64,000 bases of DNA from Paractinoplanes pyxinae (GTDB lineage: Bacteria > Actinomycetota > Actinomycetes > Mycobacteriales > Micromonosporaceae), in NCBI RefSeq assembly GCF_026626335.1, contig NZ_JAPNTZ010000022.1, forward strand, positions 1-64,000, read 5' to 3'. Both the position numbers and the translations under genes were made by a program. Under the pieces are notes generated by a model, which saw only the letters and a program-made list of their open reading frames with translations, was not told the origin of the DNA and did not search any database. Below are positions 3,766-28,724 of the stretch, piece after piece. The stretch's first letter is position 1. Each line of letters starts with the position of its first letter.

Positions 3766-3792
3766 CTCATCGGCAACCGGGATCAGGCCGAA
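3766..3792 (+). promoter_or_regulatory. Candidate FliA-type flagellar promoter before flbD-motA-motB
   Basis: CTCA, 17 bases, GCCGAA, followed 65 bases later by the flbD ATG. The same bipartite sequence recurs before six other flagellar units in the window. It resembles FliA/WhiG promoters (GCCGATAA -10); assignment to a particular sigma factor is inferred. Confidence 0.7.
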
Positions 3793-3857
3793 ACACATAA
3801 GGAAGGGCCACGGACGGCCCACCAGCCAGCAAGGAACACTCCACCACCCAAGGACGG

Positions 3858-4151
3858 ATGCAAGTGATCCTCGTAACCCGCATCAACGGTGCCGTGTTCG
3901 CCCTGAACCCGGACCTGGTCGAGCGCGCGGACTGCACGCCCGACACGGTCATCACGCTGGTCGACGGCACCAAGTACATCATCGCCGAGTCCGTGCCCGA
4001 GTTCATCGAGTCAGTGCGGCACTACCGCGCCTCACTGATCGCCCAAGCAAGTCGCCTCGAGGCCGAGCCCACCAACACCCACTCCTCCGCTCCGTCGTCC
4101 GACGACGACGGCGACGCCAAGGTGCTCACGCTGCACCGGAATGGACGCTGA
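3858..4151 (+). CDS. flbD: FlbD family flagellar protein
   Basis: A small protein of 97 residues whose first 60 match the FlbD family typical of Gram-positive flagellar operons: an N-terminal strand pair (MQVILVTRINGAVFALNPDL), then the VDGTKYIIAESVPE segment and a helix. The function of the family is not established. The C-terminal 35 residues are Ser/Asp rich and probably disordered. Its stop overlaps the motA start by one base (TGATG), matching the common flbD-motA-motB order. Confidence 0.85.
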   Translation: MQVILVTRINGAVFALNPDLVERADCTPDTVITLVDGTKYIIAESVPEFIESVRHYRASLIAQASRLEAEPTNTHSSAPSSDDDGDAKVLTLHRNGR

Positions 4152-4942
4152 TGGACATCTCAACCATCGTCGGTGTCGTCGCCGGCCTCATCATCATCTT
4201 CACCGTGCAGATCCTCGAGGGCGGTTCGCCGGCCTCGATCATCCTGATCCCCTCGATGCTGCTGGTGTTCGGCGGCGCGTTCGCGGCCGGTATGGCCGGT
4301 GGCGTGCTCAAGGACGCGACCGGCGCCGGCAAGATGCTCCAGAAGGCCTTCCTGGCCAAGGTGGCGCCGCCGACGCAGCTGGTCGAAGAGATCGTGAAGC
4401 TGGCCGAGCGGGCCCGCCGCGAGGGCCTGCTGGCCCTCGAGGACGCGGTCAAGACCGTCCAGCACCCGTTCCTCAAGCGCGGTCTGCAGCTCGCCATCGA
4501 CGGCACCGACCCGGACGAGCTGCACGACATCCTGCACGCCGAGATCGCGGCCAAGAAGAAGGCCGACAAGGCCAGCTCGAAGCTGTTCGAGAACATGGGC
4601 GGCTACGCCCCCACGATCGGCATCATCGGCACGGTCATGGGTCTCGTGCACGTGCTCGAGAACCTCGACAAGCCGGACACGCTCGGTCACTCCATCGCCG
4701 CCGCGTTCGTCGCGACCCTGTGGGGCGTGCTCAGCGCCAACGTCATCTGGCTGCCCATCGCCGCCCGCCTGGCCCGCCTCAGCGGTGTCGAGGCCGAGGA
4801 GATGGAGCTGGTGGTGGACGGCGTCCTGGCGATCCAGGCCGGCTCCAACCCGCGTCTGGTCGCCCAGAAGCTGCGCAGCCTCCTCCCTCCGGACGAGGCC
4901 AAGAAGGCCGAGGCGGCCGCGAACACCAAGAAGGCGGCGTAA
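4151..4942 (+). CDS. motA: Flagellar motor stator protein MotA
   Basis: MotA and MotB form the ion-driven stator around the rotor. The 263-residue protein starts with a membrane helix (residues 3-21), has a second hydrophobic segment near 30-50, a large charged cytoplasmic loop, and two further helices from about 155 to 205 (YAPTIGIIGTVMGLVHVL and the AAAFVATLWGVLSANVIWLP region), the family's four-helix layout. The long open frame beginning at 3707 overlaps flbD; ATG 4151 is coupled to the flbD stop and gives normal length. The C-terminal tail is Lys/Ala rich. Confidence 0.95.
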   Translation: MDISTIVGVVAGLIIIFTVQILEGGSPASIILIPSMLLVFGGAFAAGMAGGVLKDATGAGKMLQKAFLAKVAPPTQLVEEIVKLAERARREGLLALEDAVKTVQHPFLKRGLQLAIDGTDPDELHDILHAEIAAKKKADKASSKLFENMGGYAPTIGIIGTVMGLVHVLENLDKPDTLGHSIAAAFVATLWGVLSANVIWLPIAARLARLSGVEAEEMELVVDGVLAIQAGSNPRLVAQKLRSLLPPDEAKKAEAAANTKKAA

Positions 4943-4945
4943 AGC

Positions 4946-5896
4946 ATGAGTTCCGGCGGCGGCAAGCGCAAGCAGCGCCATGAGGAGCACGAGGAGCACG
5001 TCAATCACGAGCGCTGGCTCGTGTCGTACGCCGACATGCTGACCCTGCTGTTCGTCCTCTTCGTGGTTCTGTACTCGATGAGTGACGTCAACATGAAGAA
5101 GTTCGCCCAGCTGGCCTCCGGTCTGTCCTCCGGTTTCGGCGCCCAGAGCGTCGCCTTCCAGGGCCAGGCCGGCCCGATGGACGGCTCGGGCAACGCCGCC
5201 GAGATCGTGCAGATCGACCCGGGCGCCAACCCGGGCGACGGCAAGGCGGGCTCGTCCAGCCTCACCGCCGCGCAACAGCAGGCGGTCAAGGCCGCGATGG
5301 CGGCCGAGAGCCGGGCCCAGGCCTCGAAAAACGCTCAAGCGGCGACCAAAGAGGCCGAGAACCTGAAGAAGATCGAGAACAAGATCTCCGACTCCCTGGC
5401 CAAGCAGAAGCTGCTCGGCTCGGTCAAGTTCACCATCGACCGTCGTGGCCTCGTGGTCACGATCCTGACCAACGAGATCGTCTTCGCCGGCAACCGGGCC
5501 GATCTGCAGCCCGGCGGCCGCAAGATCCTCGACGCCATCGCCCCGACGCTGGTCAAGCTGCCCAACCGCATCGAGGTGGACGGCAACACCAACCAGCTCA
5601 AGGCCAAGACCACGTTCTACCCGAGCGGCTGGGAGCTCTCCGCGGCCCGCGCCTCGACCACGGTGCGTTACCTGGTCGGGCACGGCCTGGCCAAGGACCG
5701 CATGAGCGCCGTCGGCTTCTCGGACACCAAGCCGCTGATCGACCCGAAGGACCCGCGGTCGATCACCATGAACCGCCGCGTGGACGTCGTGGTGCTGACC
5801 ACGCTGACCGCCGACCAGGCGGCACTGCTGCCGGCCGCGGCCGGCGCCGACGCCAAGTTGCACACCGGTGAGACATCGGTGCAAGCCGGTAAGTGA
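4946..5896 (+). CDS. motB: Flagellar motor stator protein MotB
   Basis: The 316-residue partner of MotA. A charged N-terminus is followed by one membrane helix (residues 26-45, WLVSYADMLTLLFVLFVVLY) that carries the ion-binding Asp, D30, in the usual SYADML context. A disordered periplasmic linker follows, then an OmpA-type peptidoglycan-binding domain from about 165 to 280 (NRADLQPGGRKIL... GWELSAARASTTVRYL... NRRVDVVV). It starts 3 bases after motA. Whether the stator uses protons or sodium cannot be told with confidence. Confidence 0.95.
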   Translation: MSSGGGKRKQRHEEHEEHVNHERWLVSYADMLTLLFVLFVVLYSMSDVNMKKFAQLASGLSSGFGAQSVAFQGQAGPMDGSGNAAEIVQIDPGANPGDGKAGSSSLTAAQQQAVKAAMAAESRAQASKNAQAATKEAENLKKIENKISDSLAKQKLLGSVKFTIDRRGLVVTILTNEIVFAGNRADLQPGGRKILDAIAPTLVKLPNRIEVDGNTNQLKAKTTFYPSGWELSAARASTTVRYLVGHGLAKDRMSAVGFSDTKPLIDPKDPRSITMNRRVDVVVLTTLTADQAALLPAAAGADAKLHTGETSVQAGK

Positions 5897-5897
5897 C

Positions 5898-5924
5898 CTC
5901 AGACCGGTACCGCCACCACCGATA
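5898..5924 (+). promoter_or_regulatory. Weaker FliA-type promoter candidate before fliL
   Basis: CTCA, 16 bases, ACCGATAA in the 90-base motB-fliL gap. One mismatch from the GCCGA core seen elsewhere, but the GATAA end fits the classical FliA -10 better than the other sites do. Confidence 0.4.
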
Positions 5925-5986
5925 AACCTTGCGAAGCCAACAACAACCGAGCCACTTAGCAACGCACGACTGAGAGGAGCTTTCAG

Positions 5987-6445
5987 ATGAGCAAGGACGA
6001 GACGACCACCGCTGCCGCCGACGCCCCGAAGAAGTCCAAGAAGATGCTGATGATCATCGTGATCGCCGCAGTCGTGCTGCTGGGCGGCGGAGGCGCCGGC
6101 GCGTTCTTCATGATGAAGGGCGACAGCGCCGAGGCCGCGCCGGTCAAGGGCACGGTGGTGGCTCTGGACGACGCGATGACGATCAACCTGGCCGACGGTC
6201 ACTACCTGAAGCTGAACTTCTCGCTGCAGCAGACGGCGGACGCCGGCGCCGAGTCGGTCGACACCAGCGAGGCCCGCGAGCTGGCGATCGACGAGTACAC
6301 CGGCAAGACCCTGGCCGAGCTCTCCACCGAGAAGGGCCGCGAGGAGATCAAGAAGGACCTGACGGCGAAGATCGTCAAGGCCTACACCGAGGAAGACAAG
6401 AAGATGGTGATGGGCGTCTACTACACCGCCTTCGTCACCCAGTAA
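5987..6445 (+). CDS. fliL: Flagellar basal body-associated protein FliL
   Basis: FliL is a single-pass membrane protein that surrounds or supports the stator. This 152-residue protein has a short charged N-terminus, a membrane helix at residues 20-42 (KKMLMIIVIAAVVLLGGGGAGAFFMM) and an external domain with the family pattern LDDAMTINLADGHYLKLNFSL. An AGAGGAG site lies 8 bases before the ATG. It follows motB by 90 bases and is closed by a strong hairpin. Confidence 0.9.
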   Translation: MSKDETTTAAADAPKKSKKMLMIIVIAAVVLLGGGGAGAFFMMKGDSAEAAPVKGTVVALDDAMTINLADGHYLKLNFSLQQTADAGAESVDTSEARELAIDEYTGKTLAELSTEKGREEIKKDLTAKIVKAYTEEDKKMVMGVYYTAFVTQ

Positions 6446-6466
6446 CTGAACAGCTAACACAGCCAC

Positions 6467-6500
6467 GAGGGCGGGTTCACTTCGGTGAACCCGCCCTCTT
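6467..6500 (+). terminator. Hairpin terminator after fliL
   Basis: A perfect 14-bp stem (GAGGGCGGGTTCAC and its complement) with a TTCG tetraloop, 22 bases after the fliL stop. The T run is short (CTCTT). Confidence 0.75.
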
Positions 6501-6531
6501 CGGTCGTAAGCCCGTAAAAACGCCCCTCCCG

Positions 6532-6557
6532 CTCAGCCGTTCCGGAAACGAGCCGAT
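6532..6557 (+). promoter_or_regulatory. Candidate FliA-type promoter before fliM
   Basis: CTCA, 16 bases, GCCGAT. The fliM GTG lies only 9 bases after the GCCGAT box, so transcription may begin at or just before the start codon, giving a leaderless or nearly leaderless fliM message. Confidence 0.7.
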
Positions 6558-6566
6558 GGGGACAAC

Positions 6567-7517
6567 GTGACCAACGCCGCACGTACCTCAGGCCGGATCT
6601 CGCGCCGCGGCCATGGCGGCGGGCCCGCGCCGTACGACTTCCGCAAGCCCATCAAGCTCTCCCGCGAGCACGTCCGCACCTTGCAGATCGCGTTCGAGAC
6701 GTACGCGCGCAGCTGCGGCACCCTGCTCACGACCCGGCTGCGGGCGGTCAGCAACGTCACGCTGGCCTCGATCGAGCAGCTGAACTACGACGAGTACGTC
6801 GCCGCCCTCAACAATCCGACGGTGCTCGCCGTGGTGGTGCTCGACCCGCTGCCCGGCTCGGCCCTGTTCGAGATCGCCACCTCGGCGTCGATGACCGCGA
6901 TCGATCACATGTTGGGCGGCCCCGGCGGCCCCCAGCCGGAGCGGCCGCTGACCGAGGTCGAGATGCCCCTGCTGCGCGGCCTGCTGGAGCGGATGCTCGG
7001 CGAGCTGCGGTACGGCTTCGAGACGCTGGTCGACATGCACCCGAAGCTCAAGGAGATCGAGTACAACGCGCAGTTCCTGCGGGCCCACCAGCCCGGAGAC
7101 GCCTGCGTGATCGCGTCGTTCGACATGAAGATCGGCGCCGAGGAGACCAGCCACACGATCTGCCTGCCGTTCAACACGATCCTGCCGGTGCTCTCCAAGA
7201 CCGAGACGATCGTGCTGAGCCCGGCCGAGCGGGCCGCCAAGGACGCCGCGCTGAGCAACCTCACGGCCGGCCTCTCCTCGGCCCCGCTCGACGTCGCGGT
7301 GCGATTCCAGCCCATCCGGATGCGGACCGATGACATCGTGGACCTGCGGCCCGGCGATGTCGTCCCGCTCGGCCACCCGACGAGTCAGCCCCTCGAGGTG
7401 ACAGTCAACGAGACCGTTTTCGCCCATGCAGTGCCCGGTAATCAGGGGGCCCGGCTCGCCTGTCTGGTCGTGCCCGCCCCCAAGGAGTCCTCGCCCAAGG
7501 AGTCTGGTCGCCCATGA
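6567..7517 (+). CDS. fliM: Flagellar motor switch protein FliM
   Basis: FliM is the middle part of the C-ring that sets rotation direction. The 316-residue protein keeps the conserved opening [19 protein letters not shown] (residues 22-41), the central CheC-like domain with MLGGPGG near 115, and a C-terminal SpoA domain fused to the FliN-interaction surface (ending near LACLVVP). The GTG start is supported by GGGG just upstream and by the close promoter. The N-terminal LSQxEIDALL peptide that docks CheY-P in other FliM proteins is missing: the first 20 residues are basic and Gly rich. It overlaps fliN by four bases. Confidence 0.93.
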
Positions 7518-8275
7518 CCGCGCCCACCATCACCGCGCCGCAGCTGGCGCTCGCCCGTAACGCGGCCGAGGCCGCGCTGGGCGTCCTTCCCACCAGCCGG
7601 CCCCTGGTCGCTGCCGAGCCGATCGCGGCGACCGCGGACGCCCTGACCGAGGGGCAGGCGGTCACCGCCCGGTTCAGCGGCGCGGCCTCCGGCGAGGTGG
7701 TCGTGGTGGTCGGGCAGGACCTGGCGGACGCGCTCAGCCAGAGCCCGCTGGGCGAGCTCGACCTGACCGCCGCGGTCCGGCCGGCGCTCGAGGCCGCGGC
7801 CCGTGTGTTCGGGCCGGTCGTGCTCGACCCCGGCGTCGTGATGGAGCCGCAGGTGGCGCTGAGCGCGCTGGCGGCCAAGGACGACGCCGTGGCGGTTCCG
7901 CTGGTCGAGGGCAACCAGGTCCGCGCCGTGCTGGCGCTGGCCCTGAACCCGTGGCCGTCCGGCGACGGCGCGGGCGGTGGGGTGGCCCGGCGCGAGACGG
8001 CCGGTCCGCCCGCGGTGCAACTGCGCGGCGGGCTGGACATGCTGCAGGACGTCGAGATGGAGGTCTCGGCCGAGCTGGGCCGCACCCGGATGAGCGTGCG
8101 CGAGCTGCTGTCGCTCACGCCGGGGGCGATCGTCGAGCTCGACCGGGCCGCCGGCAGCCCGGCCGACCTGCTGGTCAACGGCCGGCTGATCGCCCGGGGC
8201 GAGGTCGTCGTGGTCGACGAGAACTTCGGCATCCGGGTCACCGAGATCGTCTCGCCCGGCACCGAACGGGAGTAA
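7514..8275 (+). CDS. fliN: Flagellar motor switch protein FliN with N-terminal extra domain
   Basis: At 253 residues this is about twice the size of enterobacterial FliN. The C-terminal 80 residues form the SpoA domain ([20 protein letters not shown] ... [27 protein letters not shown]) that builds the C-ring base. The first 150 residues look like a diverged CheC/FliY-type domain ([24 protein letters not shown]). This is the layout of Bacillus FliY, so the gene could also be called fliY; I see no clear phosphatase E-x2-N motif. It overlaps fliM by four bases and is followed by fliO. Confidence 0.88.
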
Positions 8276-8280
8276 CGGCC

Positions 8281-8724
8281 TTGTTCGAGCTCGTGCTGAG
8301 GGTCGGCTTCTCGCTCTTCGTCATCCTCGGCATGATGTGGGGCCTGGCGAGGCTCGTACGCCGTCCGCTGCTCGGCCGCGGGCACGGTGACCTGGTCGTG
8401 CTCAACCGCCAGCAGCTGTCCCGGGGCGCCGCGCTGGCCGTGGTCAAGGTGGCCGACCGGGCGATGATCCTGGGCGTCACCGACCAGCAGGTGAGCCTGC
8501 TCGGCGAGGCCGAGATCGAGGCCTTCGAGCACCACCCGGCCGAGCACCGCGACCACCTGGCGGTGGACGCCGAGCTGGCCGCAGAGCTTGCCAACGGTCC
8601 CGGCGACTTGCCCGGGCGGCACCCGGCGGCGCCCAAGCACGGCCGGTTGGACGGGTCGCTGCTGTCGCCGCGCACCTGGCGCTCGGCCCTGGAATTCCTG
8701 CGTGATCGGACGAGTCACCGATGA
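8281..8724 (+). CDS. fliO: Flagellar biosynthesis protein FliO
   Basis: FliO is a small membrane protein that helps assemble the FliP export gate. The 147-residue product has one membrane helix at residues 3-20 (ELVLRVGFSLFVILGMMWGL), then a basic patch and a strand-rich FliO domain (LVVLNRQQLSRGAALAVVKVADRAMILGVTDQQVSLL). The TTG start at 8281 is chosen because a GGGAG site lies 10 bases upstream and it begins 5 bases after the fliN stop; the open frame runs back to 7951 inside fliN. It overlaps fliP by four bases. Confidence 0.8.
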   Translation: MFELVLRVGFSLFVILGMMWGLARLVRRPLLGRGHGDLVVLNRQQLSRGAALAVVKVADRAMILGVTDQQVSLLGEAEIEAFEHHPAEHRDHLAVDAELAAELANGPGDLPGRHPAAPKHGRLDGSLLSPRTWRSALEFLRDRTSHR

Positions 8725-9563
8725 TCAAGCGCGCGTTGGTGTTGTTGTTCGCGAGCTTCGGCCTCGCGCTCGTGCTGCTGCCCGGGGCGGCCGCGGCCGA
8801 GCCCCAGCGCGCGCCGGCCCCGGTGACGTACACGGTCACGACCCCGGAGCGGGCGCCGGCGCCGCCCACCCCGCCCGGGCGTCCCAGCCGGCCCAACATC
8901 AACGTCAACATCAACGGCACCAACCCGGACGGCAGCCGCCCGGCCACGTCGCTGATCGTGATGCTCGGCCTGACCGTCCTCTCGGTGGCGCCGGCGGTGC
9001 TGTTGCTCTGCACGTGCTTCACCAAGATCTTCATGGTCCTGGGCATCACCCGCAACGCGCTCGGCCTGACCACCATGCCGCCCAACCAGGTGCTGGCCGG
9101 CCTGGCCCTGTTCATCAGCCTGTTCATCATGGGACCGACCGTCTCGGCCATGAACGAGCAGGGCGTGCAGCCCTATCTGAAGGGCGACAAGACCCAGTCG
9201 CAGGCGTTCAACGACGGTGTCAAGCCGCTGCGGGACTTCATGTGGAAGACCACCCGCGACGACGAGGTGGCGCTCATGCTCCGCCTGGCCGGCGACGACA
9301 AGCCCAAGAACCGCAACGACGTCGAGCTGACCACCCTGGTGCCGGCCTTCGTGCTCTCCGAGCTGCGGCAGGCGATGATCATCGGGTTCGTCATCTTCAT
9401 CCCGTTCCTGCTGATCGACATGGTGGTCTCGGCGTCGCTGATGTCCCTGGGCATGATGATGCTGCCACCGGTGACTGTTGCTTTACCCTTCAAGCTTTTG
9501 TTGTTCGTGCTGGTCAACGGGTGGGGGTTGATCCTTCAGGCGCTGGTGGCGTCGTATAGATGA
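8721..9563 (+). CDS. fliP: Flagellar export gate protein FliP
   Basis: FliP forms the pentameric core of the flagellar type III export gate. The 280-residue protein has an N-terminal signal-like helix (residues 5-25, AAA cleavage region), a Pro-rich linker, then the family's conserved segments: LIVMLGLTVLSVAPAVLL, FTKIFMVLGITRNALGL, PTVSAMNE, and the C-terminal pair ending MLPPVTVALPFKLLLFVLV. It is in the inner membrane with four helices. It is followed immediately by fliR; the usual fliQ between them is missing. Confidence 0.95.
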   Translation: MIKRALVLLFASFGLALVLLPGAAAAEPQRAPAPVTYTVTTPERAPAPPTPPGRPSRPNINVNINGTNPDGSRPATSLIVMLGLTVLSVAPAVLLLCTCFTKIFMVLGITRNALGLTTMPPNQVLAGLALFISLFIMGPTVSAMNEQGVQPYLKGDKTQSQAFNDGVKPLRDFMWKTTRDDEVALMLRLAGDDKPKNRNDVELTTLVPAFVLSELRQAMIIGFVIFIPFLLIDMVVSASLMSLGMMMLPPVTVALPFKLLLFVLVNGWGLILQALVASYR

Positions 9564-10324
9564 ACCTGAACGTCCCGATCGCCGAGATGCTCGCGCTGCT
9601 GCTCGGCGCGGCTCGCACCGGGGCGTGGATGATGCTGTGCCCGCCGTTCAACTCGCGGCTCATCCCCGGACCGGTCAAGGCGCTGCTGTCGATCGGCCTG
9701 ACGCTGCCGGTCGCCCCGCAACTGCGCGGCGCGCTGCCGTCGCTGCAGACCTCGGACATCATCTTCAGCGTCGCCCTGCAGATCTTCGTGGGGGCCGGCC
9801 TGGGCTTCATCACGGCCATCCTGTTCGCGGCCCTGCAGGCGGCCGGTGACCTCATCGACCTCTTCGGCGGTTTCACGCTGGCCATGGGGTACGACCCCCT
9901 GTCGCAGAACCAGAGCTCGATCTTCGGCCGGTTCTACAACCTCGTGGCGGTCACCCTGCTCTTCGCCACCGACGGGCATCAGATGGTGCTGCGAGGCTTC
10001 CTCCAGTCGTTCAAGACGGTGCCGCTGAACTGGACGTTCTCGCCCAGCACGTTCACCGAGCTGCTGATCAAGGGGCTCGGCGAGATGTTCGTGGCCGCCC
10101 TGCAGATCGCCGGCCCGCTGATCGCCGTCCTGTTCCTCACCGACGTGGCCTTCGGCCTGCTCAACCGGGTCGCCCCCGCGCTCAACGCGTTCCAGCTGGG
10201 CTTCCCGGCCAAGATCTTCATGGTCCTGCTCATCTCCGGCATCGCGATCACGGCCCTGCCCGGCATCCTCGACGGCGTCGTGGAGCGCGCGGTCAACGCG
10301 GTGATCCAGCTCAGCGGGGGATGA
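9560..10324 (+). CDS. fliR: Flagellar export gate protein FliR
   Basis: FliR completes the export gate with FliP and FliQ. The 254-residue protein has the family's six hydrophobic segments and the hallmark PPFNSRLIPGPVKALLSIGLT and GFTLAMGYDPLSQNQSSIFGRFYN regions. Its ATG overlaps the fliP stop by four bases, which leaves no room for fliQ. Its length is normal, with no FliQ-like extension at either end. flhB starts 6 bases downstream. Confidence 0.95.
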   Translation: MNLNVPIAEMLALLLGAARTGAWMMLCPPFNSRLIPGPVKALLSIGLTLPVAPQLRGALPSLQTSDIIFSVALQIFVGAGLGFITAILFAALQAAGDLIDLFGGFTLAMGYDPLSQNQSSIFGRFYNLVAVTLLFATDGHQMVLRGFLQSFKTVPLNWTFSPSTFTELLIKGLGEMFVAALQIAGPLIAVLFLTDVAFGLLNRVAPALNAFQLGFPAKIFMVLLISGIAITALPGILDGVVERAVNAVIQLSGG

Positions 10325-10330
10325 GGCCAC

Positions 10331-11416
10331 ATGTCGGACAAGACCGAACAACCGACACCCCAGAAACTCAAGAAGGCCAAGCGCGAAGGGCAGATCGGCC
10401 GCAGTCAGGACATCGGCGCCTGGTTCGGCATGCTGGCCGCGAGTGTCATGCTGCCGCGCACCCTCTCCTCGGCCATGGAGCACGCCGAGAAGCTGCTGGC
10501 CCAGCTGCCCGACGTGATCGCCGACCCGCAGCCGGCCCAGGCCATGGCGCTGCTGAAGCAGGCCATGATGGGCACGATGTGGGCCGTCCTGCCGCTCTCG
10601 CTGACGATGATGGTGGTCGGCATCGCCGCGGCCGGGGCGCAGGGCGGCATCCGGGTCGCCACCAAGCTGTTCATCCCGAAGTTCAACCGGCTCAACCCCT
10701 GGCCCGGCCTCAAGCGGATGCTCGGCCCCCAGGCCCTCTGGGAGGGAACGAAGGCGCTGGTCAAGACGGGCGTGCTGGCGGGCGTGCTCTACTCGACGAC
10801 CAAGGACGTGTTCCCGGCCCTGATGAGCGCCGGGCAGCTGCCCTTGGCCGCGCTGTTCGGCACTGTCGTGGACGCCGCTCTCAACCTGATCCGGGCCGCC
10901 TCGGTGGCCGGCATCGCCATGGCCGCCGCCGACTACTTCGTCGTACGCCGCCGCACCAACAAACAGCTGCGGATGACCAAGGAAGAGGTCAAGCAGGAGT
11001 ACAAGAACTCCGAGGGTGACCCGCTGATCAAGGCCCAGATCCGGGCCCGGCAGATGGCGATGGCCCGCAACCGGCAGATGGCCGACGTGCCGACCGCGGA
11101 TGTCGTGATGGTCAACCCGACCCACGTGGCGGTGGCACTGCGCTACGAGCCGCAGAAGGGCGCGCCGCGGGTGGTGGCCAAGGGGCAGGGTCCGCTGGCC
11201 ACCAAGATCCGTGAGCTGGCGACCGAGCACCGGGTGCCCATGGTCGAGGACAAACCGCTGGCCCGGGCGCTGTACGGCGGCGTCGAGGTGGGCCACGAGA
11301 TCCCGGCCGAGTTCTTCGGCACGGTGGCCAAGGTGCTGGCGTTCGTCATGAGCCTGAAGGCGAAGGGGTCGGCCGCCGGGCTGCACCGCAACCCATCCGC
11401 CTCAGAAGCCGCATAA
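10331..11416 (+). CDS. flhB: Flagellar export protein FlhB, substrate-specificity switch
   Basis: FlhB controls the change from rod/hook to filament export. The 361-residue protein begins with the typical EQPTPQKLKKAKREGQIGRSQD motif, has four membrane segments, and carries the self-cleavage site N262-P263-T264-H265 (VMVNPTHVAVAL) in its cytoplasmic domain. The partner ruler FliK is encoded at 15573. A 167-base gap with a promoter follows before flhA. Confidence 0.96.
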   Translation: MSDKTEQPTPQKLKKAKREGQIGRSQDIGAWFGMLAASVMLPRTLSSAMEHAEKLLAQLPDVIADPQPAQAMALLKQAMMGTMWAVLPLSLTMMVVGIAAAGAQGGIRVATKLFIPKFNRLNPWPGLKRMLGPQALWEGTKALVKTGVLAGVLYSTTKDVFPALMSAGQLPLAALFGTVVDAALNLIRAASVAGIAMAAADYFVVRRRTNKQLRMTKEEVKQEYKNSEGDPLIKAQIRARQMAMARNRQMADVPTADVVMVNPTHVAVALRYEPQKGAPRVVAKGQGPLATKIRELATEHRVPMVEDKPLARALYGGVEVGHEIPAEFFGTVAKVLAFVMSLKAKGSAAGLHRNPSASEAA

Positions 11417-11491: not shown

Positions 11492-11517
11492 CTCAGTGAA
11501 GGCGACGGATCGCCGAA
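11492..11517 (+). promoter_or_regulatory. Candidate FliA-type promoter before flhA
   Basis: CTCA, 16 bases, GCCGAA, 67 bases before the flhA GTG, in the only sizeable gap of the export-gene run. Confidence 0.7.
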
Positions 11518-17327: not shown

Positions 17328-17365
17328 GCGGATCTCCTGCTCAGCTCTTCCTCAACGGTGCCCGG

Positions 17366-18854: not shown

Positions 18855-18879
18855 TCGGCCCCGCAACCCGTTCGCTGAG
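18855..18879 (-). promoter_or_regulatory. Candidate FliA-type promoter before fliJ
   Basis: On the minus strand CTCA, 16 bases, GCCGA, ending 45 bases before the fliJ GTG. It would drive fliJ, the wall hydrolase and fliK as an operon separate from fliI. Confidence 0.7.
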
Positions 18880-20329: not shown

Positions 20330-20345
20330 TGTGCGACCCCTCTGT

Positions 20346-22035: not shown

Positions 22036-22104
22036 CGCGTACTCCTCGAACCGTCAGCGGGATACAACCAGGGCGGCCGGCCGCAGCCGGCCGCCACGAA
22101 AGGG

Positions 22105-23718
22105 TCAGCGCGTCGTGTCGGCGGCCAGCCAGCCGCGCAGTAGCACCGCCATCTCCTCCGGTTGATCCTTGACCATCTGGTCGATCTCGCGCTGGCGTTC
22201 CTCGCGAGCCTGCACGTTCGTGTCGTCCATGGCCATTCCGGCCTCCAGCATCTGGGCGGGAATCGCCTGGTTGAGCTCGGCCAGCCGCTGGGCCTCGAGG
22301 GCGGCCTGCATGTCCTCGAGGTGCTTGCGCTCCTCGGGGGTCAGGCCCCGGCGCTTCTTGCTCTTCCGGCTGAACCGCCAGGCCAGGAACATCAGCAGAA
22401 GCACGAGCCCGCCGAGGGCGCCGGTCTTGATCAGCGACATCTGCTTGGCCTGCGTGGCGGCGGCCGAGGAGGCGCTCAGGGCCTCCTGCGCGGCCTTGGC
22501 GGCGCTCTGGTCGAACGGCATGGCCGAGACCGCGATCGTGTCGCCGCGGGTGGCGTCGATGCCGGCCGCGGCGGTGACGAGCTGCTGCACCTGGGCCGGG
22601 TCGACGGTGCCGGCCACCGTGCTGTTCAGCAGCACGGCCACGTTGAGCCGCTTGATGCCGCCGGGCGCGTTCTTGCGGGTCTCGTTGATCTCGTTCAGCG
22701 CGTTGTTGCGGACGCTCGAGCTGTTCTCGTACTGGCCGGGCCCGTTGCTGGGGCCGGCCGGACCGGCGATGTTGTCGGGGCCGAGCACGCCGCCGGCGGA
22801 GCTCCCGTCGGCGTTGTAGGCCTCCCGGGTGTTGCTCTCGGAGAGGGCGGGCACCGACGGATCCGCGTTGTAGGTGCGGCTCTGCGTCTGGGTCTGGTCG
22901 AAGTCGAGGACGGCGTTGGTCGTCACCACGGCGTTCCCGGGACCGACCAGGCTCTCGACGATCTTCTGCAGCGAGGAGTTCATCCGGTTCTGGAAGCCGA
23001 CGGTCTGCGCTTCCGTCCCGCTGTCCCCGCCCGTTCCGATGGCCGCACCACCACCGGTCGAGAGGATCCGGCCGTCGGCGCCGGCCACGGTGATCTGGGT
23101 CGGGTCGAGGCCTTCGACGCTCGACGCGACGAGGTGCACGATGGCCTGCACCTGGTCGCCGCTCAAGGGCTGGGTCGAGCTCGAGGCCACCAGCACCGAG
23201 GCGGTCGGCTTGTCCTGCTCGTCGGCGAAGACGTCCTTCTTGGGGATCACGAGGTGCACGGTGGCCGCCTCGACCCCCTCGATCGACTTGATCGTGGTGG
23301 AGAGCTCGCCCTCGAGCGCGCGCTGGTAGTTCGTCTGCTGCATGAAGTCGCTGGTGGTGATGCCCTGCTGGTCTAGCAGCGCGTAACCGGTGCCGGCGTC
23401 GCCGGGCAGCCCTTCGCTGCTCAGCGACAGCCGCAGTTCGTTCACCTGGTCCTGCGGCACCAGCACGGTCTGGCCGTCGTTGGCCAGCTCGTAGCTGGTG
23501 CCGCTCTTCTTGAGCGATTCGACGATGGCGCTGGCGTCCTTCGACGACAGGTTGTTGAACAGGATCGAGTAGGACGGCTTGGACGCCCACGTGGCGAAGA
23601 AGTAAGCGCCGATGACGAGGGCGACTACCGCCGCGATCGTGACGGCCTTCTGTCCCGGTGTGAAGGACCGGAACGTGTCCGTGACGCGGCGAACCGGAGC
23701 GGGAAGGCGGTCGGTCAT
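22105..23718 (-). CDS. fliF: Flagellar MS-ring protein FliF
   Basis: FliF makes the membrane ring on which the flagellum is built. The 537-residue protein has an N-terminal membrane helix (residues 25-45), the SctJ/FliF ring domain (YSILFNNLSSKDASAIVESLKKSGTSYEL, then GYALLDQQGITTSDFMQQTNYQRALEGEL), a large external region, a second membrane helix near 428-447 (GALGGLVLLLMFLAWRF) and a cytoplasmic FliG-binding tail ending in MAVLLRGWLAADTTR. It starts 1 base after the fliE stop, within the flgB operon. Confidence 0.97.
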   Translation of the reverse strand: MTDRLPAPVRRVTDTFRSFTPGQKAVTIAAVVALVIGAYFFATWASKPSYSILFNNLSSKDASAIVESLKKSGTSYELANDGQTVLVPQDQVNELRLSLSSEGLPGDAGTGYALLDQQGITTSDFMQQTNYQRALEGELSTTIKSIEGVEAATVHLVIPKKDVFADEQDKPTASVLVASSSTQPLSGDQVQAIVHLVASSVEGLDPTQITVAGADGRILSTGGGAAIGTGGDSGTEAQTVGFQNRMNSSLQKIVESLVGPGNAVVTTNAVLDFDQTQTQSRTYNADPSVPALSESNTREAYNADGSSAGGVLGPDNIAGPAGPSNGPGQYENSSSVRNNALNEINETRKNAPGGIKRLNVAVLLNSTVAGTVDPAQVQQLVTAAAGIDATRGDTIAVSAMPFDQSAAKAAQEALSASSAAATQAKQMSLIKTGALGGLVLLLMFLAWRFSRKSKKRRGLTPEERKHLEDMQAALEAQRLAELNQAIPAQMLEAGMAMDDTNVQAREERQREIDQMVKDQPEEMAVLLRGWLAADTTR

Positions 23719-23719
23719 C

Positions 23720-24064
23720 TCAGGCCTGCATCCTCATGATTTCCTGGAACGCTTCCACGGCCTTGTTGCGGACGGCGAGCGTCATCTGCAGGCCGAGCTG
23801 GGCTTCGTTGGCTGCCATGGTGTACTGCGCCGGGTCCTGCAGCGTGCCCTGCGCGACCTGGACGGCGAGGTCGTCCGCCTTGGCCTGCGAGGCCTGCACG
23901 CTTTCCAGACCGCGTGAGAGCATGCTGGCGAAGCTCTCGTGCTCGCCCTGGGCCGCAGTGACCTTCTCGCCGCCGGTGAGGGCGCCGGCGCCGCCGATGC
24001 CGCTGACCGCGTCCAGTCCGGGAACCGCGGAGAATCCACTGATGGCACTGATCGGGGAAGTCAT
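23720..24064 (-). CDS. fliE: Flagellar hook-basal body protein FliE
   Basis: FliE links the MS ring to the rod. The 114-residue protein has the conserved C-terminal half (ESFASMLSRGLESVQASQAKADDLAVQVAQG ... YTMAANEAQLGLQMTLAVRNKAVEAFQEIMRMQA). The flgB-flgC-fliE-fliF order is the standard one. It is exported by the flagellar route without a signal peptide. Confidence 0.95.
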   Translation of the reverse strand: MTSPISAISGFSAVPGLDAVSGIGGAGALTGGEKVTAAQGEHESFASMLSRGLESVQASQAKADDLAVQVAQGTLQDPAQYTMAANEAQLGLQMTLAVRNKAVEAFQEIMRMQA

Positions 24065-24072
24065 CGCCTACC

Positions 24073-24465
24073 TCACTTTCCGAGGTTGATCGCGGCCGTG
24101 TAGGAGTCCTTGGCCCGGTCCACCACGGCCAGGTTGGCCTGGTAGGCACGCTGGGCCATCATCATCTGGGCCATCTGCGAGCTGAGGTCGATGTCGGCCT
24201 TGCGCACGTAGCCCTGGCTGTCAGCGAGCGGGTTGTCCGGCTCGTGCACCAGCACACCCTCGGCGCTGCCGAACGCCACGCCGCCGACCTGGGCGCCGTT
24301 GCCGTCCTGGGCCTCCTGGGCGAGCACGTAGCGGGCCTGGAAAGCCTTCTCGGACGTACGCACGGTGTTGTCCATGTTGGCGATGTTGTCCGAGACGGCG
24401 TCCAGCCATTTGCGATACACGGTCACGCCGGTGCCGGCCACGCCGATAGCGTTGAAAGTGCTCAT
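24073..24465 (-). CDS. flgC: Flagellar basal-body rod protein FlgC
   Basis: A proximal rod subunit of 130 residues. It has the N-terminal rod motif in slightly diverged form (VTVYRKWLDAVSDNIANMDNTVRT) and the C-terminal motif VDLSSQMAQMMMAQRAYQANLAVVDRAKDSY. It starts 2 bases after flgB. The gene is slightly shorter than enterobacterial FlgC but complete. Confidence 0.94.
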   Translation of the reverse strand: MSTFNAIGVAGTGVTVYRKWLDAVSDNIANMDNTVRTSEKAFQARYVLAQEAQDGNGAQVGGVAFGSAEGVLVHEPDNPLADSQGYVRKADIDLSSQMAQMMMAQRAYQANLAVVDRAKDSYTAAINLGK

Positions 24466-24467
24466 GC

Positions 24468-24815
24468 TCAGGCTCCCTTGATCGCGTCGCGCAGCATCGA
24501 GTACTTGGTGTCCATCGCCCGCAGGGTGAGCTGATAGCGCATCGTGGTGTCGATGTGGGAGAGCGTCTCTTCGTCGAGGTTGACGTTGTTGCCGTTGAGT
24601 CGCGTGGGCTCCAGCGACGACCGGGTCTGCGGTGCGACCCCCAGCGGCGACATGCCCTTGGCCACGGCGCCGCGCAACGCCTCTTCGAATTCGACCTTAC
24701 GGGCCCGGTAGCCGGGGGTCTCGATGTTCGCGATGTTGTTGGCGATGGCCGTCTGCCGCTGCGCCAGGCCGGTGGCCGCGACGCGCAGGGAAGCTGAGGA
24801 GACGTCGTCGAACAC
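24468..24815 (-). CDS. flgB: Flagellar basal-body rod protein FlgB
   Basis: The first rod subunit, 115 residues, with ASLRVAATGLAQRQTAIANNIANIETPGYRARKVEFE at the N-terminus and YQLTLRAMDTKYSMLRDAIKGA at the C-terminus, the FlgB signature ends. It is the first gene of a seven-gene operon to fliI. An AAGGAGC site lies 7 bases before the ATG and a flagellar promoter 75-100 bases upstream. Confidence 0.94.
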   Translation of the reverse strand: MFDDVSSASLRVAATGLAQRQTAIANNIANIETPGYRARKVEFEEALRGAVAKGMSPLGVAPQTRSSLEPTRLNGNNVNLDEETLSHIDTTMRYQLTLRAMDTKYSMLRDAIKGA

Positions 24816-24890: not shown

Positions 24891-24915
24891 TCGGCGTGTT
24901 CGGTGATCCGCTGAG
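24891..24915 (-). promoter_or_regulatory. Candidate FliA-type promoter before flgB operon
   Basis: On the minus strand CTCA, 16 bases, GCCGA(A), with the -10-like box about 75 bases before the flgB ATG. It would drive flgB-flgC-fliE-fliF-fliG-fliH-fliI. Confidence 0.7.
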
Positions 24916-24944: not shown

Positions 24945-24982
24945 AAAGGTCCCGGAACCCCACAGAGGGGATTCCGGGACCA
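24945..24982 (-). terminator. Terminator after the fliC-fliD-fliS-side operon
   Basis: On the minus strand a stem of GGTCCCGGAA plus CCCC with one bulged base, closed by a short loop, then TTTT. It lies just after the small gene at 24995-25315. Confidence 0.8.
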
Positions 24983-24994
24983 TGTGGCCGTCCG

Positions 24995-25315
24995 TTACAT
25001 GGCCCGGTCGACGTACACGGGCCGTTTGACCGCTTCTCCGGTCTCGATTTTGGTGGTCATGGACATCTGCTGGCGGGTGGCGGTCATCCGGCGGGCAATC
25101 TCCTCGGCCGCCTTCAACTGCCGGGTGAGAATCTCGTCGGCCCGGGGCCGGAGCTCCAGCGGCAGCGCGCCGAGTTCGGTCGGCGGCTTCCACAGGCTGG
25201 CCGGCGGTGTCTCGGCGTGCCGGTGCTCGTCGTCGAGCATCGCCTCGATCGAGGCCACGTCGAGCTCAAGCTCGTCGAGGGCCGCGCTCCAGGCGTTCCG
25301 CCAGTCACCGCTCAT
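24995..25315 (-). CDS. Small protein in fliT position, unknown function
   Basis: A 106-residue protein 34 bases downstream of fliS and followed by a terminator, so it ends the fliD-fliS operon. It is rich in charged residues and mostly helical (WRNAWSAALDELELDVASIEAMLDDEHR, then RADEILTRQLKAAEEIARRMTATRQQMSM) with no membrane segment. That position is held by fliT, the FliD chaperone, in many bacteria, but I see no clear FliT sequence signature. It is best treated as a conserved flagellar-operon protein that could be a chaperone. Confidence 0.7.
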   Translation of the reverse strand: MSGDWRNAWSAALDELELDVASIEAMLDDEHRHAETPPASLWKPPTELGALPLELRPRADEILTRQLKAAEEIARRMTATRQQMSMTTKIETGEAVKRPVYVDRAM

Positions 25316-25349
25316 GTCGCCTTCTCCGTCCGTCCCGCTCCTCCGCTCG

Positions 25350-25736
25350 TCAGTGAGCGACCGCCGAGGCGGCGGCCTCGCGCCAGGCGTCCCGCAGGGG
25401 CTCGACGAAACCGCGGCAGACGGCGACCCGCTCGGCGTCCTTGGCGATGTTGGCCCCGATCAGCTCGGTGATCAGGTAGCCGTACAGGTTGGCCAGCCCG
25501 GGCGCGCCCGACCAGGCCTCGACGTCCAAGCTGACCTGCAGCTCGATGAGGATCTCCTGGGCGTGCGAGATCTTCTCGTGGGCATTCTCGATCTCGCCGG
25601 CCCGGATGGCCTCCTCACCCTGCACGAGGTCGAGGACGAGGCGGTCGTACAACATCGTGAGCAGCTTGGCCGGCGAGGCAGTCTGGATCGAGTCCTGCAG
25701 GTAGCGGTTGCGGAGGTTCGGGGCGGTCACGGTCAT
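25350..25736 (-). CDS. fliS: Flagellin export chaperone FliS
   Basis: FliS binds the flagellin C-terminus and prevents early polymerisation. The 128-residue protein has the FliS pattern: RNRYLQDSIQTASPAKLLTMLYDRLVLDLVQGEEAI at residues 8-43, then HAQEILIELQVSLD and the Tyr-Leu-rich third helix ANLYGYLITELIGANI. It lies 46 bases after fliD. In Bacillus FliS also assists FliW signalling; both partners are encoded here. Confidence 0.94.
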   Translation of the reverse strand: MTVTAPNLRNRYLQDSIQTASPAKLLTMLYDRLVLDLVQGEEAIRAGEIENAHEKISHAQEILIELQVSLDVEAWSGAPGLANLYGYLITELIGANIAKDAERVAVCRGFVEPLRDAWREAAASAVAH

Positions 25737-25782
25737 CGGTCTCCTTGGTCAGGGCCCTGCGATGGCTGGTCGGGGCGGTGGA

Positions 25783-27174
25783 TCAGAGGCCGGAGAGCTG
25801 GCCGGCGAGCCAGTTGGACTGGTTCTTGAGCTTGCCCAGCGAGGTCTCGAGGTCGGAGTAGGTCTTCTGCAGCGCGGTCCGCTTGGCTGCGAGCCGGATG
25901 TCCCAGCCGCTGATCTGCGTGTTGAGGCCGTCGATCTCGTTCTTGCGGCCGGTGATGACCGAGGTGATGTTGACGGTCTGGTCGCCCGCGTACTTTTCCA
26001 TCTGGTCGGCGAACTCGATGCCGGCCGCCTGGATCTGCGACGGGTTCTCGTTGTAGGCGGTGGCGAACTTGGCCGAGTCGAAGGTCAGCTGGCCGGTCCG
26101 GTCCAGCGCCACACCGAACTTCGAGAGCGAGATCGAGATCTTCTCGAGGTTGGTCTTGGTGGCCGCGTCGGTCGGCTGGTTCTTGTCGTACGAGGGGTTC
26201 GTATAGGTCAGACCAAGGCTGATCTTGCTGAGCAGCGACTGCGAGATGTTGCGCACCGCGAAGTCGCCGGTCAGCGGCGAGCTCTTCTTGGTCGCCGCGT
26301 CGTACGCCGTCTGCTTGGCCACCTCGTTCAGCGTGCCGTTGGCCGCGTCCACCAGCGCCTGGATCTTGCTCGCGATGCCGCTGACGTCCTGGTCGGAGGT
26401 GACCGTGACGTCGTTCTCGAGCTTGGAGACGGTGATCGAGACACCCGGCATGAGCTTGCTGAAGGTGTTGGTGTCGCTGGTGACGGAGTAACCGCCGTTC
26501 GCGGCGTTGTCGTCGCCACCGCCGATGTCCAGCTGGGCGTTCGAGGCCGACGCCACGTTGGTCAGCGGCGAGGCGACGCCGTCGAGCCCGCTGTCGATCC
26601 GGAAGGCGTTGGCGGTGCCGGTCTTGGACCCGCTGATCTGCAGGATGTCGTTGGCGCCACCGGTGGTGACCACGGTCGCCTTGAGGCCGATGCCGGCCGC
26701 GTTGATCGCGGCGGCGACGCCCTTGGCCGACTTGTCGTCGCCCAGCGTGATCGTGTTGACCTTGTCGTTGGTGCTGCCGTCGAGCGGGCCGGTGGTGATC
26801 TGGATGGTGCCCGAGCTGATGTCGCCCGTGGTGGGCACCTTGGCCGTGGTGATCTGGTTCTTGGCCAGGCTCTTGACGTTGAACACGGTCGTGCCGGAGG
26901 CGCCGTTGGTGCCGGTCAGGGCGGTCGCCGTCACGGTGCTGGAGCTCGAGGTCGCCTTGACCGCGCGCCAGGTGCTGAGCTGACCCACGCCGTCGGCCGC
27001 GTTCTTGAGCGAGGTCAGCGCGGCGTTGACCGACTGGTAGGAGGCGACCGCGGTCTGGGCGGTGGTCACCTTCGTCTTGAGGCGGGTCTGGGGCGCGGCC
27101 TCGACCTGCATCAACGAGTTGATCATCGAGGACGTCTGAAGGCCGCTGACGAGTCCGTCTACCGAGCTGCTCAC
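25783..27174 (-). CDS. fliD: Flagellar filament cap protein FliD
   Basis: FliD caps the filament and folds incoming flagellin. The 463-residue protein has the N-terminal domain SSVDGLVSGLQTSSMINSLMQVEAAPQTRLKTKVT and the C-terminal ITGRKNEIDGLNTQISGWDIRLAAKRTALQKTYSDLETSLGKLKNQSNWL, both FliD hallmarks, around a Ser/Thr/Gly-rich middle. The gap to fliC (112 bases) contains a hairpin without a T run, so read-through from fliC is possible. Confidence 0.94.
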   Translation of the reverse strand: MSSSVDGLVSGLQTSSMINSLMQVEAAPQTRLKTKVTTAQTAVASYQSVNAALTSLKNAADGVGQLSTWRAVKATSSSSTVTATALTGTNGASGTTVFNVKSLAKNQITTAKVPTTGDISSGTIQITTGPLDGSTNDKVNTITLGDDKSAKGVAAAINAAGIGLKATVVTTGGANDILQISGSKTGTANAFRIDSGLDGVASPLTNVASASNAQLDIGGGDDNAANGGYSVTSDTNTFSKLMPGVSITVSKLENDVTVTSDQDVSGIASKIQALVDAANGTLNEVAKQTAYDAATKKSSPLTGDFAVRNISQSLLSKISLGLTYTNPSYDKNQPTDAATKTNLEKISISLSKFGVALDRTGQLTFDSAKFATAYNENPSQIQAAGIEFADQMEKYAGDQTVNITSVITGRKNEIDGLNTQISGWDIRLAAKRTALQKTYSDLETSLGKLKNQSNWLAGQLSGL

Positions 27175-27205
27175 CGGAGCCTGCCTTTCACTGCTGAACG
27201 AGAGC

Positions 27206-27236
27206 GGGGGCAGCCGCTTTTGACGGCTACCCCCAC
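27206..27236 (-). terminator. Hairpin between fliC and fliD, possible partial terminator
   Basis: An 11-bp stem with one mismatch (GGGGGCAGCCG against CGGCTACCCCC) and a 7-base loop. No T run follows on the minus strand, so it may be an attenuator or a 3' end processing site that lets fliC be expressed above fliD. Confidence 0.5.
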
Positions 27237-27286
27237 CTATTCGGTCGCTTGCACGAGATATTCAGTTGCTGACGGTGGCAGTTCGG

Positions 27287-28510
27287 TTAGCGCAGCAGCG
27301 AGAGAACGTTCTGCGCCGACTGGTTGGCCTGCGACAGCATCGAGGTGCCGGCCTGGGTCAGGATCTGCGACCGGGTGAACGACACCATCTCCTGGGCCAT
27401 GTCGGTGTCACGGATACGCGACTCCGACGCGGACAGGTTCTCGACGGCCACGTTCAGGTTGTTGATGGTGTGCTCGAAGCGGTTCTGCACAGCACCGAGC
27501 GTGGCGCGGCTCTCGGTGACCGACGACAGGGCCTTGTCGATCGCCTTGATGGCGGCGTCGGGGTCCTTGCTGAGGTCGAGCGACGCGGTGCCGAGCGTCT
27601 CGGAGTCGACGGCGCCGATCGAGATGCCGATCTTCTGGTTGGCGTTCGCGCCGACCTGGAATTTGCCGGTGTTGCCGCCGGTGGCCTCCTTGTTGGTGAG
27701 GTCGATCTTCGCCCCGCCCAGCACGGCGCCGGTGCCGTCGGCCACGGTGAAGTCGCCCGAGCCGGCCAGCGAGTAGGTCGTGTTGTTCTGCGCGTCGACC
27801 TTGGCCGACATGGTGAGCTCGTTGCCCTGGTAACCGGCCGCCTTGAGCGCCTTCTCGGTCGCCGAGTTCACGGCCTTGGCCAGGTCCTGAGCCGACGCGT
27901 CGGCCGGGAGGGCGCCCACGTTGACCGTGATGTCGCCACCCTTCGGAGTAGAGCCGCCCACCTTGCTGATGGTGAAGCTGAAGTCGGAGTTGGCACCGGC
28001 CGGAACGGCGGCCGCGGCGCCGCCCACGTTGGGCAGGCTGCTGGTCGCCGCGTCCGTGTACTTCGACTTCACCGTGTTGCCGAACGACCCGTCGAGCAGG
28101 TTCTGCTTGCCGAACGCGGTGCTCTTGCCGATCCGGTCGAGCTCCTGGTTCAGCTGGGCCATTTCCTTGTTGGTGGCCTCGGCGGCCGAGGAGTCGGTCG
28201 CGCCGGAGTTCGCCGCCTGCACCGACAGGTCACGCATGCGCTGCAGGATGGCGGTCGTCTCGTTGAGCGCGCCTTCAGCGGTCTGCGCGACGCTGACCCC
28301 GTCCTGCGTGTTGCGGACGGCGACCTTCAGACCGCCGACCTGCGAGCGCAGGCCCTCGGAGATGGACAGACCGGCCGCGTCGTCGGCGGCCCGGTTGATG
28401 CGGAAACCACTGGACAACTTCTCCAGCGACTTCGACATCTGGCTGTCGGTGACCGACAGGTTCCGGTAGGCGTTCTGCGCGGCGATGTTCTGATTGATGC
28501 GAAGACCCAT
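27287..28510 (-). CDS. fliC: Flagellin FliC
   Basis: The filament subunit. The 407-residue protein has the flagellin N-terminal D0/D1 region (MGLRINQNIAAQNAYRNL ... LSSGFRINRAADDAAGLSISE) and C-terminal region (ATLGAVQNRFEHTINNLNVAVENLSASESRIRDTDMAQEMVSFTRSQIL), with a Gly/Ala/Thr-rich middle exposed on the surface. The open frame runs to 28681, but ATG 28510 has AAGGAGGA 7 bases upstream and is the normal flagellin start. Its leader carries a promoter and a likely CsrA-binding hairpin, described separately. Confidence 0.97.
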   Translation of the reverse strand: MGLRINQNIAAQNAYRNLSVTDSQMSKSLEKLSSGFRINRAADDAAGLSISEGLRSQVGGLKVAVRNTQDGVSVAQTAEGALNETTAILQRMRDLSVQAANSGATDSSAAEATNKEMAQLNQELDRIGKSTAFGKQNLLDGSFGNTVKSKYTDAATSSLPNVGGAAAAVPAGANSDFSFTISKVGGSTPKGGDITVNVGALPADASAQDLAKAVNSATEKALKAAGYQGNELTMSAKVDAQNNTTYSLAGSGDFTVADGTGAVLGGAKIDLTNKEATGGNTGKFQVGANANQKIGISIGAVDSETLGTASLDLSKDPDAAIKAIDKALSSVTESRATLGAVQNRFEHTINNLNVAVENLSASESRIRDTDMAQEMVSFTRSQILTQAGTSMLSQANQSAQNVLSLLR

Positions 28511-28539
28511 GAGTGCTTCCTCCTTGAGGGGTCTTGGAG

Positions 28540-28558
28540 CGGCCCATCCATGGGGCCG
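28540..28558 (-). promoter_or_regulatory. Probable CsrA-binding hairpin in the fliC leader
   Basis: On the minus strand a 6-bp stem CGGCCC/GGGCCG presents the loop CATGGAT, so GGA sits in a hairpin loop as in high-affinity CsrA sites. A second GGA pair lies in the Shine-Dalgarno AAGGAGGA about 25 bases downstream, and CTCC/GGAG pairing could cover it. This is the two-site layout by which CsrA represses flagellin translation in Bacillus. csrA and its antagonist fliW are 3.5 kb away. Confidence 0.6.
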
Positions 28559-28577
28559 TGGCTCTACGCCAGGCCGA

Positions 28578-28603
28578 TCGGCGCGGTGCCGACGGTTCAT
28601 GAG
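28578..28603 (-). promoter_or_regulatory. Candidate FliA-type promoter of fliC
   Basis: On the minus strand CTCA, 17 bases, GCCGATCG, predicting a transcript start near 28570 and a leader of about 60 bases containing the CsrA-type hairpin. Confidence 0.75.
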
Positions 28604-28698
28604 CAGTCTGCGAGATTCCCGCGGCGATTTCCGGCGAATACGAAGAAACCTGAATCCAACTCGCATGAACCCGGAATGCACCGGATCGGGGGAAATCC

Positions 28699-28724
28699 CT
28701 CAGCGGAGTCGCACCCGTGCCGAC
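28699..28724 (+). promoter_or_regulatory. Candidate FliA-type promoter of the flgN operon
   Basis: CTCA, 16 bases, GCCGAC, 57 bases before the flgN GTG; divergent from the fliC promoter about 100 bases away. Confidence 0.7.

Follow-up and report, generated by a model that had tools for sequence, protein, structure and literature searches.

What is the short two-part sequence that recurs before the flagellar genes of Paractinoplanes pyxinae, what would read it, and which other genes does it precede? The stretch analysed, referred to below as the window, comprises the first 64,000 nucleotides of contig C15 (NZ_JAPNTZ010000022.1) of a 10.18-Mb genome, and has a G+C content of 69.8%. The original prediction, made from the letters of this stretch, was that CTCA-N16/17-GCCGA precedes seven flagellar transcription units, with a weaker copy before fliL. 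We find that this element is very probably a promoter, with CTCA(G) as the -35 and GCCGA as the -10 half-site, that would be read by RNA polymerase carrying a sigma factor of the FliA/WhiG type. The observations behind this reading are the position and orientation of the element, its near-fixed spacing (usually 16), the conservation of the half-sites, a preferred G, and start codons found exactly 10 bases downstream; transcription itself would start at these elements.

The window contains 13 exact matches to CTCA-N16/17-GCCGA, compared with a mean of 2.52 and a maximum of 7 in 100 dinucleotide shuffles. All seven predicted sites are among them, in the same positions and on the same strands, each oriented towards a first gene whose start codon begins 10 to 75 bases after the end of GCCGA. 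On the plus strand, the element precedes flbD-motA-motB (3766..3791, N17, 66 bases to the start codon), fliM-fliN-fliO-fliP-fliR-flhB (6532..6556, N16, 10 bases to a GTG, predicted to be leaderless), flhA (11492..11516, N16, 67 bases), and flgN-flgK-flgL-fliW-csrA (28699..28723, N16, 57 bases). On the minus strand, it precedes fliJ-lytA-fliK (18855..18879, N16, 44 bases), flgB-flgC-fliE-fliF-fliG-fliH-fliI (24891..24915, N16, 75 bases), and fliC-fliD-fliS-orfX (28578..28603, N17, 67 bases). The fliJ start was taken as the GTG at 18810; the gene caller favoured 18783. The weaker copy before fliL was also recovered, as CTCA-N16-ACCGATAA with an ACCGA half (5898..5922, plus strand, 64 bases). A G stands four bases 3' of GCCGA in six of the seven exact sites, flbD being the exception, and an A follows GCCGA directly in three (flbD, flhA, and flgB). 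At the shuffle rate, ∼0.03 matches would be expected in the six gaps concerned (seven gap-strands, ∼1.4 kb by hand count) and seven are seen, the pattern having been derived from these same seven sites.

The remaining six exact matches all lie within open reading frames (ORFs): 5334 (plus) in motB, 11641 (plus) in flhA, 25104 (minus) in orfX, 29758 (minus) antisense in flgK, 33274 (plus) in mcp, and 58569 (plus) in an ORF of 495 amino acids. Three of the six have the N17 spacing, which places CTC and GCC in one reading frame, and all six are probably chance matches. The same could be asked of the whole set: CTC and GCC are codons of GC-rich genes, and only the matches next to genes might have been noticed.

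This explanation by chance or codon usage was confronted with related genomes. Orthologues of 31 window genes were located with tblastn in 46 named loci of the Actinoplanes group and in 30 fliM loci (our genome being among the 30), and 250 bases upstream were scanned for exact CTCA-N15-18-GCCGA. Usable stretches were obtained for 28 genes; fliR, flhB, and mcp had none in relatives. The element was exact before flgN in 42 of 42 loci, before flgB in 40 of 45, before fliJ in 35 of 44, before fliC in 33 of 42 (with N16, N17, or N18), before fliM in 29 of 30 (our own genome counted), and before flbD in seven of eight relatives. For flgB, fliJ, and fliC, most loci without an exact match carry a copy with one mismatch. 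Such copies stand near the usual distance in all five remaining flgB loci and in six of the nine fliC loci; for fliJ, they stand at 41–43 bases in seven of nine loci and at 52 bases in L087, with none in L103. A frequent change among these copies for fliJ, flgB, and fliC is ACCGA for GCCGA. The fliL element is exact in two of 28 loci, and a variant (CTCA or CTAA, N16, ACCGA or GCCGA) is found at 44–70 bases in another ten, our genome counted. By contrast, the element is absent before each of 19 operon-internal genes (for example, fliI 0/46, flgK 0/42, and fliN 0/30), some of which were represented by few loci (csrA 0/4), and it occurs before the operon-internal lytA in three of 43 relatives. 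The reversed pattern gave eight gene-locus cases in total across the upstream scans. The half-sites are kept in relatives while the spacer drifts. In the aligned exact sites, weighted by promoter, G follows CTCA with a frequency of 0.83 (N16) or 0.58 (N17), and stands four bases after GCCGA with a frequency of 0.92 (N16) or 0.99 (N17); the latter is the preferred G in GCCGANNNG.

We then scanned the whole genome. The bare CTCA-N16/17-GCCGA pattern occurs 615 times exactly, and 264 times when reversed. Being so common, single matches away from gene fronts carry little weight, and the bare pattern was rejected as a predictor. The longer CTCA-N16-GCCGANNNG occurs 92 times compared with 49 for its reversed form. 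Eighty-six of these sites are outside the window: 37 fall within called ORFs and 49 do not, and in 32 of these 49 a gene on the same strand begins within 200 bases. Among 30 of the 49 reversed-pattern sites that were examined, 27 were within ORFs and three outside, one of them being followed by a gene. Two further candidate sets were set aside. The 166 genome sites with N17, of which part were listed, look like in-frame coding sequence and were kept out of the counts. For CTCA-N15-17-GCCGAA (107 matches compared with 68 reversed, part listed), a recurring CTCAGCGACGA..CCGGTGCCGAA match looks promoter-like and was read as coding sequence of the opposite strand; the proteins behind this coding reading carry GTGHSSL or GTGQSSL.

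The genome-wide sites are associated with genes for cyclic-di-GMP enzymes. For 17 of the 86 sites, a same-strand GGDEF domain follows within 2.5 kb, compared with none of the 49 reversed ones and one on the other strand; within 4 kb, the figures are 18 of 86 and three of 49. For domains of methyl-accepting chemotaxis proteins (MCPs), three of 86 sites and no reversed ones were found within 2.5 kb. Eight of the 32 downstream proteins were analysed with Pfam: two have EAL domains (one GGDEF-EAL, one GAF-EAL), two are PAS histidine kinases, and the other four are a CheB methylesterase, a FIST-domain protein, a TPR protein, and a protein kinase that also has an AAA domain. We also started from the genes: the genome has 98 GGDEF matches, and a gene start was called for 95 (three were dropped). 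The region scanned ran from 160 bases before to 40 bases after the gene or operon start. The exact element was found there in 26 of the 95 cases and a relaxed form (CTMA, RCCGA) in 33; both the reversed pattern and the opposite strand gave 0/95. Neighbouring genes without a GGDEF motif had the element in seven of 232 cases, and three of these seven (L372, L375, and L456) head operons with a GGDEF gene. Before one GGDEF-EAL gene, which reads leftwards from about C13:51377 and has an orthologue in A. missouriensis, CTCA-N16-GCCGA is present in 30 of 30 loci (the best 30 of 58 genomes with a match, 57–100% identity, our genome counted), with a varying spacer. Outside the window, MCP genes have the exact element in four of 18 cases and the relaxed one in five, with one relaxed match on the opposite strand, and MCPs were rejected as the main target. 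Cyclic-di-GMP enzymes are the largest target class among those tested. The original expectation of motility and chemotaxis targets was therefore incomplete, some chemotaxis genes being indeed found. We found no description of Actinoplanes GGDEF genes with flagellar-sigma promoters in the open-access literature searched, the target lists of Jang 2016 and Hashiguchi 2020 being outside its scope.

Taken together, these data leave chance or codon usage barely credible as an account of the element. It draws on the 615 genome matches, on the six of 13 window matches within ORFs, and on the in-frame N17; it does not explain why orthologous gaps keep the element and 19 internal genes lack it, nor the 0/95 of both controls at GGDEF fronts and the 30/30 conservation despite a drifting spacer. 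As far as the sequence goes, this reading is refuted for the seven sites, and it stands for the six intragenic matches.

The distance to the start codon provides another type of evidence. In 19 of 70 non-ORF CTCA-N16-GCCGA sites, from stretches many of which had been chosen for GGDEF genes, ATG or GTG stands exactly 10 bases after GCCGA, compared with a mean of 2.5 per offset at offsets 15–100. Such clustering is consistent with transcripts that start at about the start codon and would be leaderless, and it is independent evidence that GCCGA is the -10. The offset-10 genes, fliM among them, would thus probably give leaderless mRNAs. For fliM, the 10-base spacing recurs in a Frankiales metagenome-assembled genome (MAG) whose FliM is 42% identical; in Nocardioides mangrovi, the spacing is five bases by the called start.

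An alternative, which we consider very unlikely, is that the two half-sites are not a -35 and a -10 but form an operator bound by a regulator, such as a response regulator of the TcrA kind. In A. missouriensis, TcrA acts on developmental promoters via direct-repeat boxes (PMC12691653), and such boxes could overlap sigma sites. The element, however, is an asymmetric, non-repeated pair whose orientation is fixed and whose spacing is nearly so, its GCCGA half opens the flagellar -10 quoted in PMC8325347, and an operator would not impose start codons exactly 10 bases after GCCGA.

As originally noted, no sigma gene of the FliA/WhiG class is present in the window. The genome has four such genes, two on contig C18 and one each on C3 and C7. 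In a search with TIGR02479 (cut-off 189.6 bits), two of them score above the cut-off (190.6 and 190.4) and two just under it (181.9 and 181.4), the next best score being 116.6. The two C18 genes (∼30.6–35.5 kb, L272) are convergent and ∼3.4 kb apart. The recognition helix of region 4.2 is ESR(V/I)SQLR(A/T)EAL in all four proteins and in the FliA homologue of Nocardioides mangrovi. In structures 6pfv and 6pfj, which we take to be WhiG (the records call them RNA polymerase sigma factor), the helix is ESRVSQIHTKSV, and in FliA of 6pmi it is ESRVSQLHSQAI; FliA of 1rp3 has Lys at the position of the Arg/His difference. The His-to-Arg change is a candidate cause of the change from TAAA to CTCA, as judged from few sequences. 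The N. mangrovi homologue (L110:3017-3784) is 53–57% identical and is encoded in the same stretch as the flagellar genes of that species.

Could real promoters be read by a sigma factor other than these four, for instance one of the SigB/SigF type? The -35 half is not TAAA, and the 29 TIGR02479 matches in the genome point to many other sigma-like genes. Still, GCCGA is the FliA/WhiG -10, and the N. mangrovi FliA homologue is on a stretch whose flagellar genes bear the same promoters. We consider another sigma factor very unlikely, and retain one of the FliA/WhiG type as the probable reader. The original assignment of the GCCGA half to this class holds in all seven exact sites (by the pattern itself), with ACCGA at fliL, and the half is kept in relatives. 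The -35 was described as unusual: CTCA in place of TAAA is indeed present in all eight sites, and it is no oddity of this cluster.

This follows from a scan of 12 loci from actinobacteria that do not belong to the Actinoplanes group. Nine of them, from six Nocardioides, one Frankiales MAG, and two unclassified actinobacterial MAGs, have a total of 29 CTCA-N16-RCCGA sites before called genes, one of which (L110, before fliS) overlaps the apparent end of the preceding gene. TAAA-N15/16-RCCGA was not found before called genes in any of the 12 loci, nor was the reversed pattern in the nine CTCA-bearing ones. In the other three loci (the "Actinomycetes" MAG L129 and two from Thermoleophilia, one of which spans 3.9 kb), neither the CTCA nor the TAAA form precedes a called gene. 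The same is true of seven loci from other phyla, with raw counts of 0–2 for either form in six of the seven. In the eight CTCA-bearing loci examined, the sites precede relatives of flbD, flgB, fliC, fliM, fliS, and lytA, and also FlgN-like and several chemotaxis genes, as judged from the first residues. We found no description of the element beyond the Actinoplanes group or of the offset-10 start codons in the open-access literature searched.

These results can be joined into one proposal, towards which we lean with some reserve. A sigma-28 dialect, CTCAG-N15-GCCGANNNG, would be common to several flagellate Actinomycetia (the Actinoplanes group, Nocardioides, and the Frankiales MAG), and would be fixed by Arg in the recognition helix of region 4.2 in place of the His of WhiG and one FliA of known structure. 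In the zoospore formers, this sigma factor would have come to control roughly a quarter to a third of the cyclic-di-GMP enzymes, many of them made from leaderless mRNAs with the start codon as the transcription start. If so, swimming and a signal that could end it would be made in one programme.

Several observations weigh against the promoter reading or narrow it. Apart from the frequency of the bare pattern noted above, the flhA element is exact in only nine of 21 relatives, and even a near copy is missing from most of the other 12. The window's own mcp lacks an exact element as a promoter. The second GGDEF gene followed in relatives has the element in only two of its 11 closest homologues (our genome counted), which indicates high turnover of sites; it is exact in nine of all 30 loci, the other seven being in more distant homologues. 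Scans of 7–10 kb stretches that include the four sigma genes and fliQ gave no relaxed CTMA-N15-17-RCCGA outside ORFs, and autoregulation of the sigma genes was rejected. Many loci come from close relatives and hence are not independent. Gene starts outside the window are those of our own codon-usage caller, which was trained on the window's GC-rich genes and is not reliable when applied to genomes of low G+C content. Finally, it is sequence that supports the promoters, the regulon, the leaderless genes, and the wider occurrence of the dialect.

With these reservations, we propose that one or more of the four FliA-like paralogues would read the element and that all eight flagellar units would be switched on together as motile spores form, as has been reported for Actinoplanes missouriensis. 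This agrees with the coordinated regulon originally suggested. Through the same promoters, this sigma factor would also control a large share of the cyclic-di-GMP enzymes, some chemoreceptors, one CheB, and some sensor kinases, and the signalling set of the motile stage would be made along with it. If about one in four GGDEF genes is transcribed from a flagellar-sigma promoter, these enzymes would be produced during the developmental programme that also makes the flagella. In addition, the element may serve as a promoter model for Actinoplanes genomes that itself predicts where the transcript starts.

The flagellar gene names used here are backed by Pfam and NCBIfam, except flgN, named by position and without an NCBIfam match, and FliJ, whose match is under the curated cut-off. 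On the plus strand, flbD, motA, and motB (3858..5896; FlbD, MotA_ExbB, MotB_plug, and OmpA domains) are followed by fliL (5987..6445; FliL), by fliM, fliN, fliO, fliP, fliR, and flhB (6567..11416; Pfam), and by flhA (11584..13638; FHIPEP). Directly 3' of flhA, on the same strand, is a well-scoring gene of 546 amino acids (13628-15268) without a Pfam match. The minus strand carries fliK, the lytA-like gene (SLT and NlpC/P60), and fliJ (15573..18810; Pfam), then fliI, fliH, fliG, fliF, fliE, flgC, and flgB (19022..24815; Pfam and NCBIfam), and orfX, fliS, fliD, and fliC (24995..28510; Pfam except orfX). The 106-amino-acid orfX (24995-25315), the last gene of the fliC-fliD-fliS unit, is present in the loci of 45 relatives, and Pfam and NCBIfam scans gave no match for it. 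The plus-strand unit of flgN, flgK, flgL, fliW, and csrA (28781..32384) was assigned by Pfam/NCBIfam and position. At the left end (1-3637), there are response-regulator, weakly CheX-like, flgD, and flgE genes, and the contig end cuts off any promoter there; Pfam gave no match for the gene at 1277-1765. fliQ is outside the flagellar cluster, at C7:153488-153703 (L275). FliG is 99% identical to FliG of Paractinoplanes maris and P. aksuensis, which places the window in the Actinoplanes group of zoospore formers.

The closest known system is that of the sister species A. missouriensis. Jang et al. (2016, J Bacteriol 198:2219) reportedly mapped eleven starts there by rapid amplification of cDNA 5' ends (5'-RACE) and obtained a conserved CTCA(N15-17)GCCGAA. 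The half-sites, the spacing range, and the kind of gene cluster are the same as here, whereas the A that ends the A. missouriensis consensus after GCCGA is found in only three of our seven sites, the G four bases on being present in six. The promoter core thus seems to be already known, and the larger yield is probably the content of the regulon, the putative leaderless genes, and the wider occurrence of the dialect. In the FliA/WhiG class, the half-sites are ∼16 bases apart. The flagellar consensus of this class (sigma-28) has TAAA as the -35 and GCCGATAA as the -10 (PMC8325347), so that the -10 opens with GCCGA in both systems, and the -35 is TAAA there and CTCA(G) here. In A. missouriensis, 33 flagellar genes are transcribed simultaneously (PMC8306008), and three FliA-family sigma factors act in development (PMC13293333). 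WhiG-like sigma factors direct flagellar and pilus genes in Actinoplanes, which, according to the same source, lacks RsiG, the anti-sigma factor that binds with cyclic-di-GMP (PMC8325347). Zoospore formers have the most GGDEF proteins within their phylum (PMC10746217). There is a precedent for linking this sigma class with cyclic-di-GMP: starts have been mapped for 12 WhiG promoters of Rubrobacter radiotolerans, and five of these promoters precede diguanylate cyclase or phosphodiesterase (DGC/PDE) genes (PMC8325347). R. radiotolerans resembles P. pyxinae in that promoters of a flagellar-class sigma factor, as proposed here, stand before many cyclic-di-GMP enzyme genes. It differs in that three of its promoters are in a type IV pilus cluster and that a TAAA -35 was searched for, whereas here the element stands before flagellar genes as well, has CTCA, and precedes more GGDEF genes.

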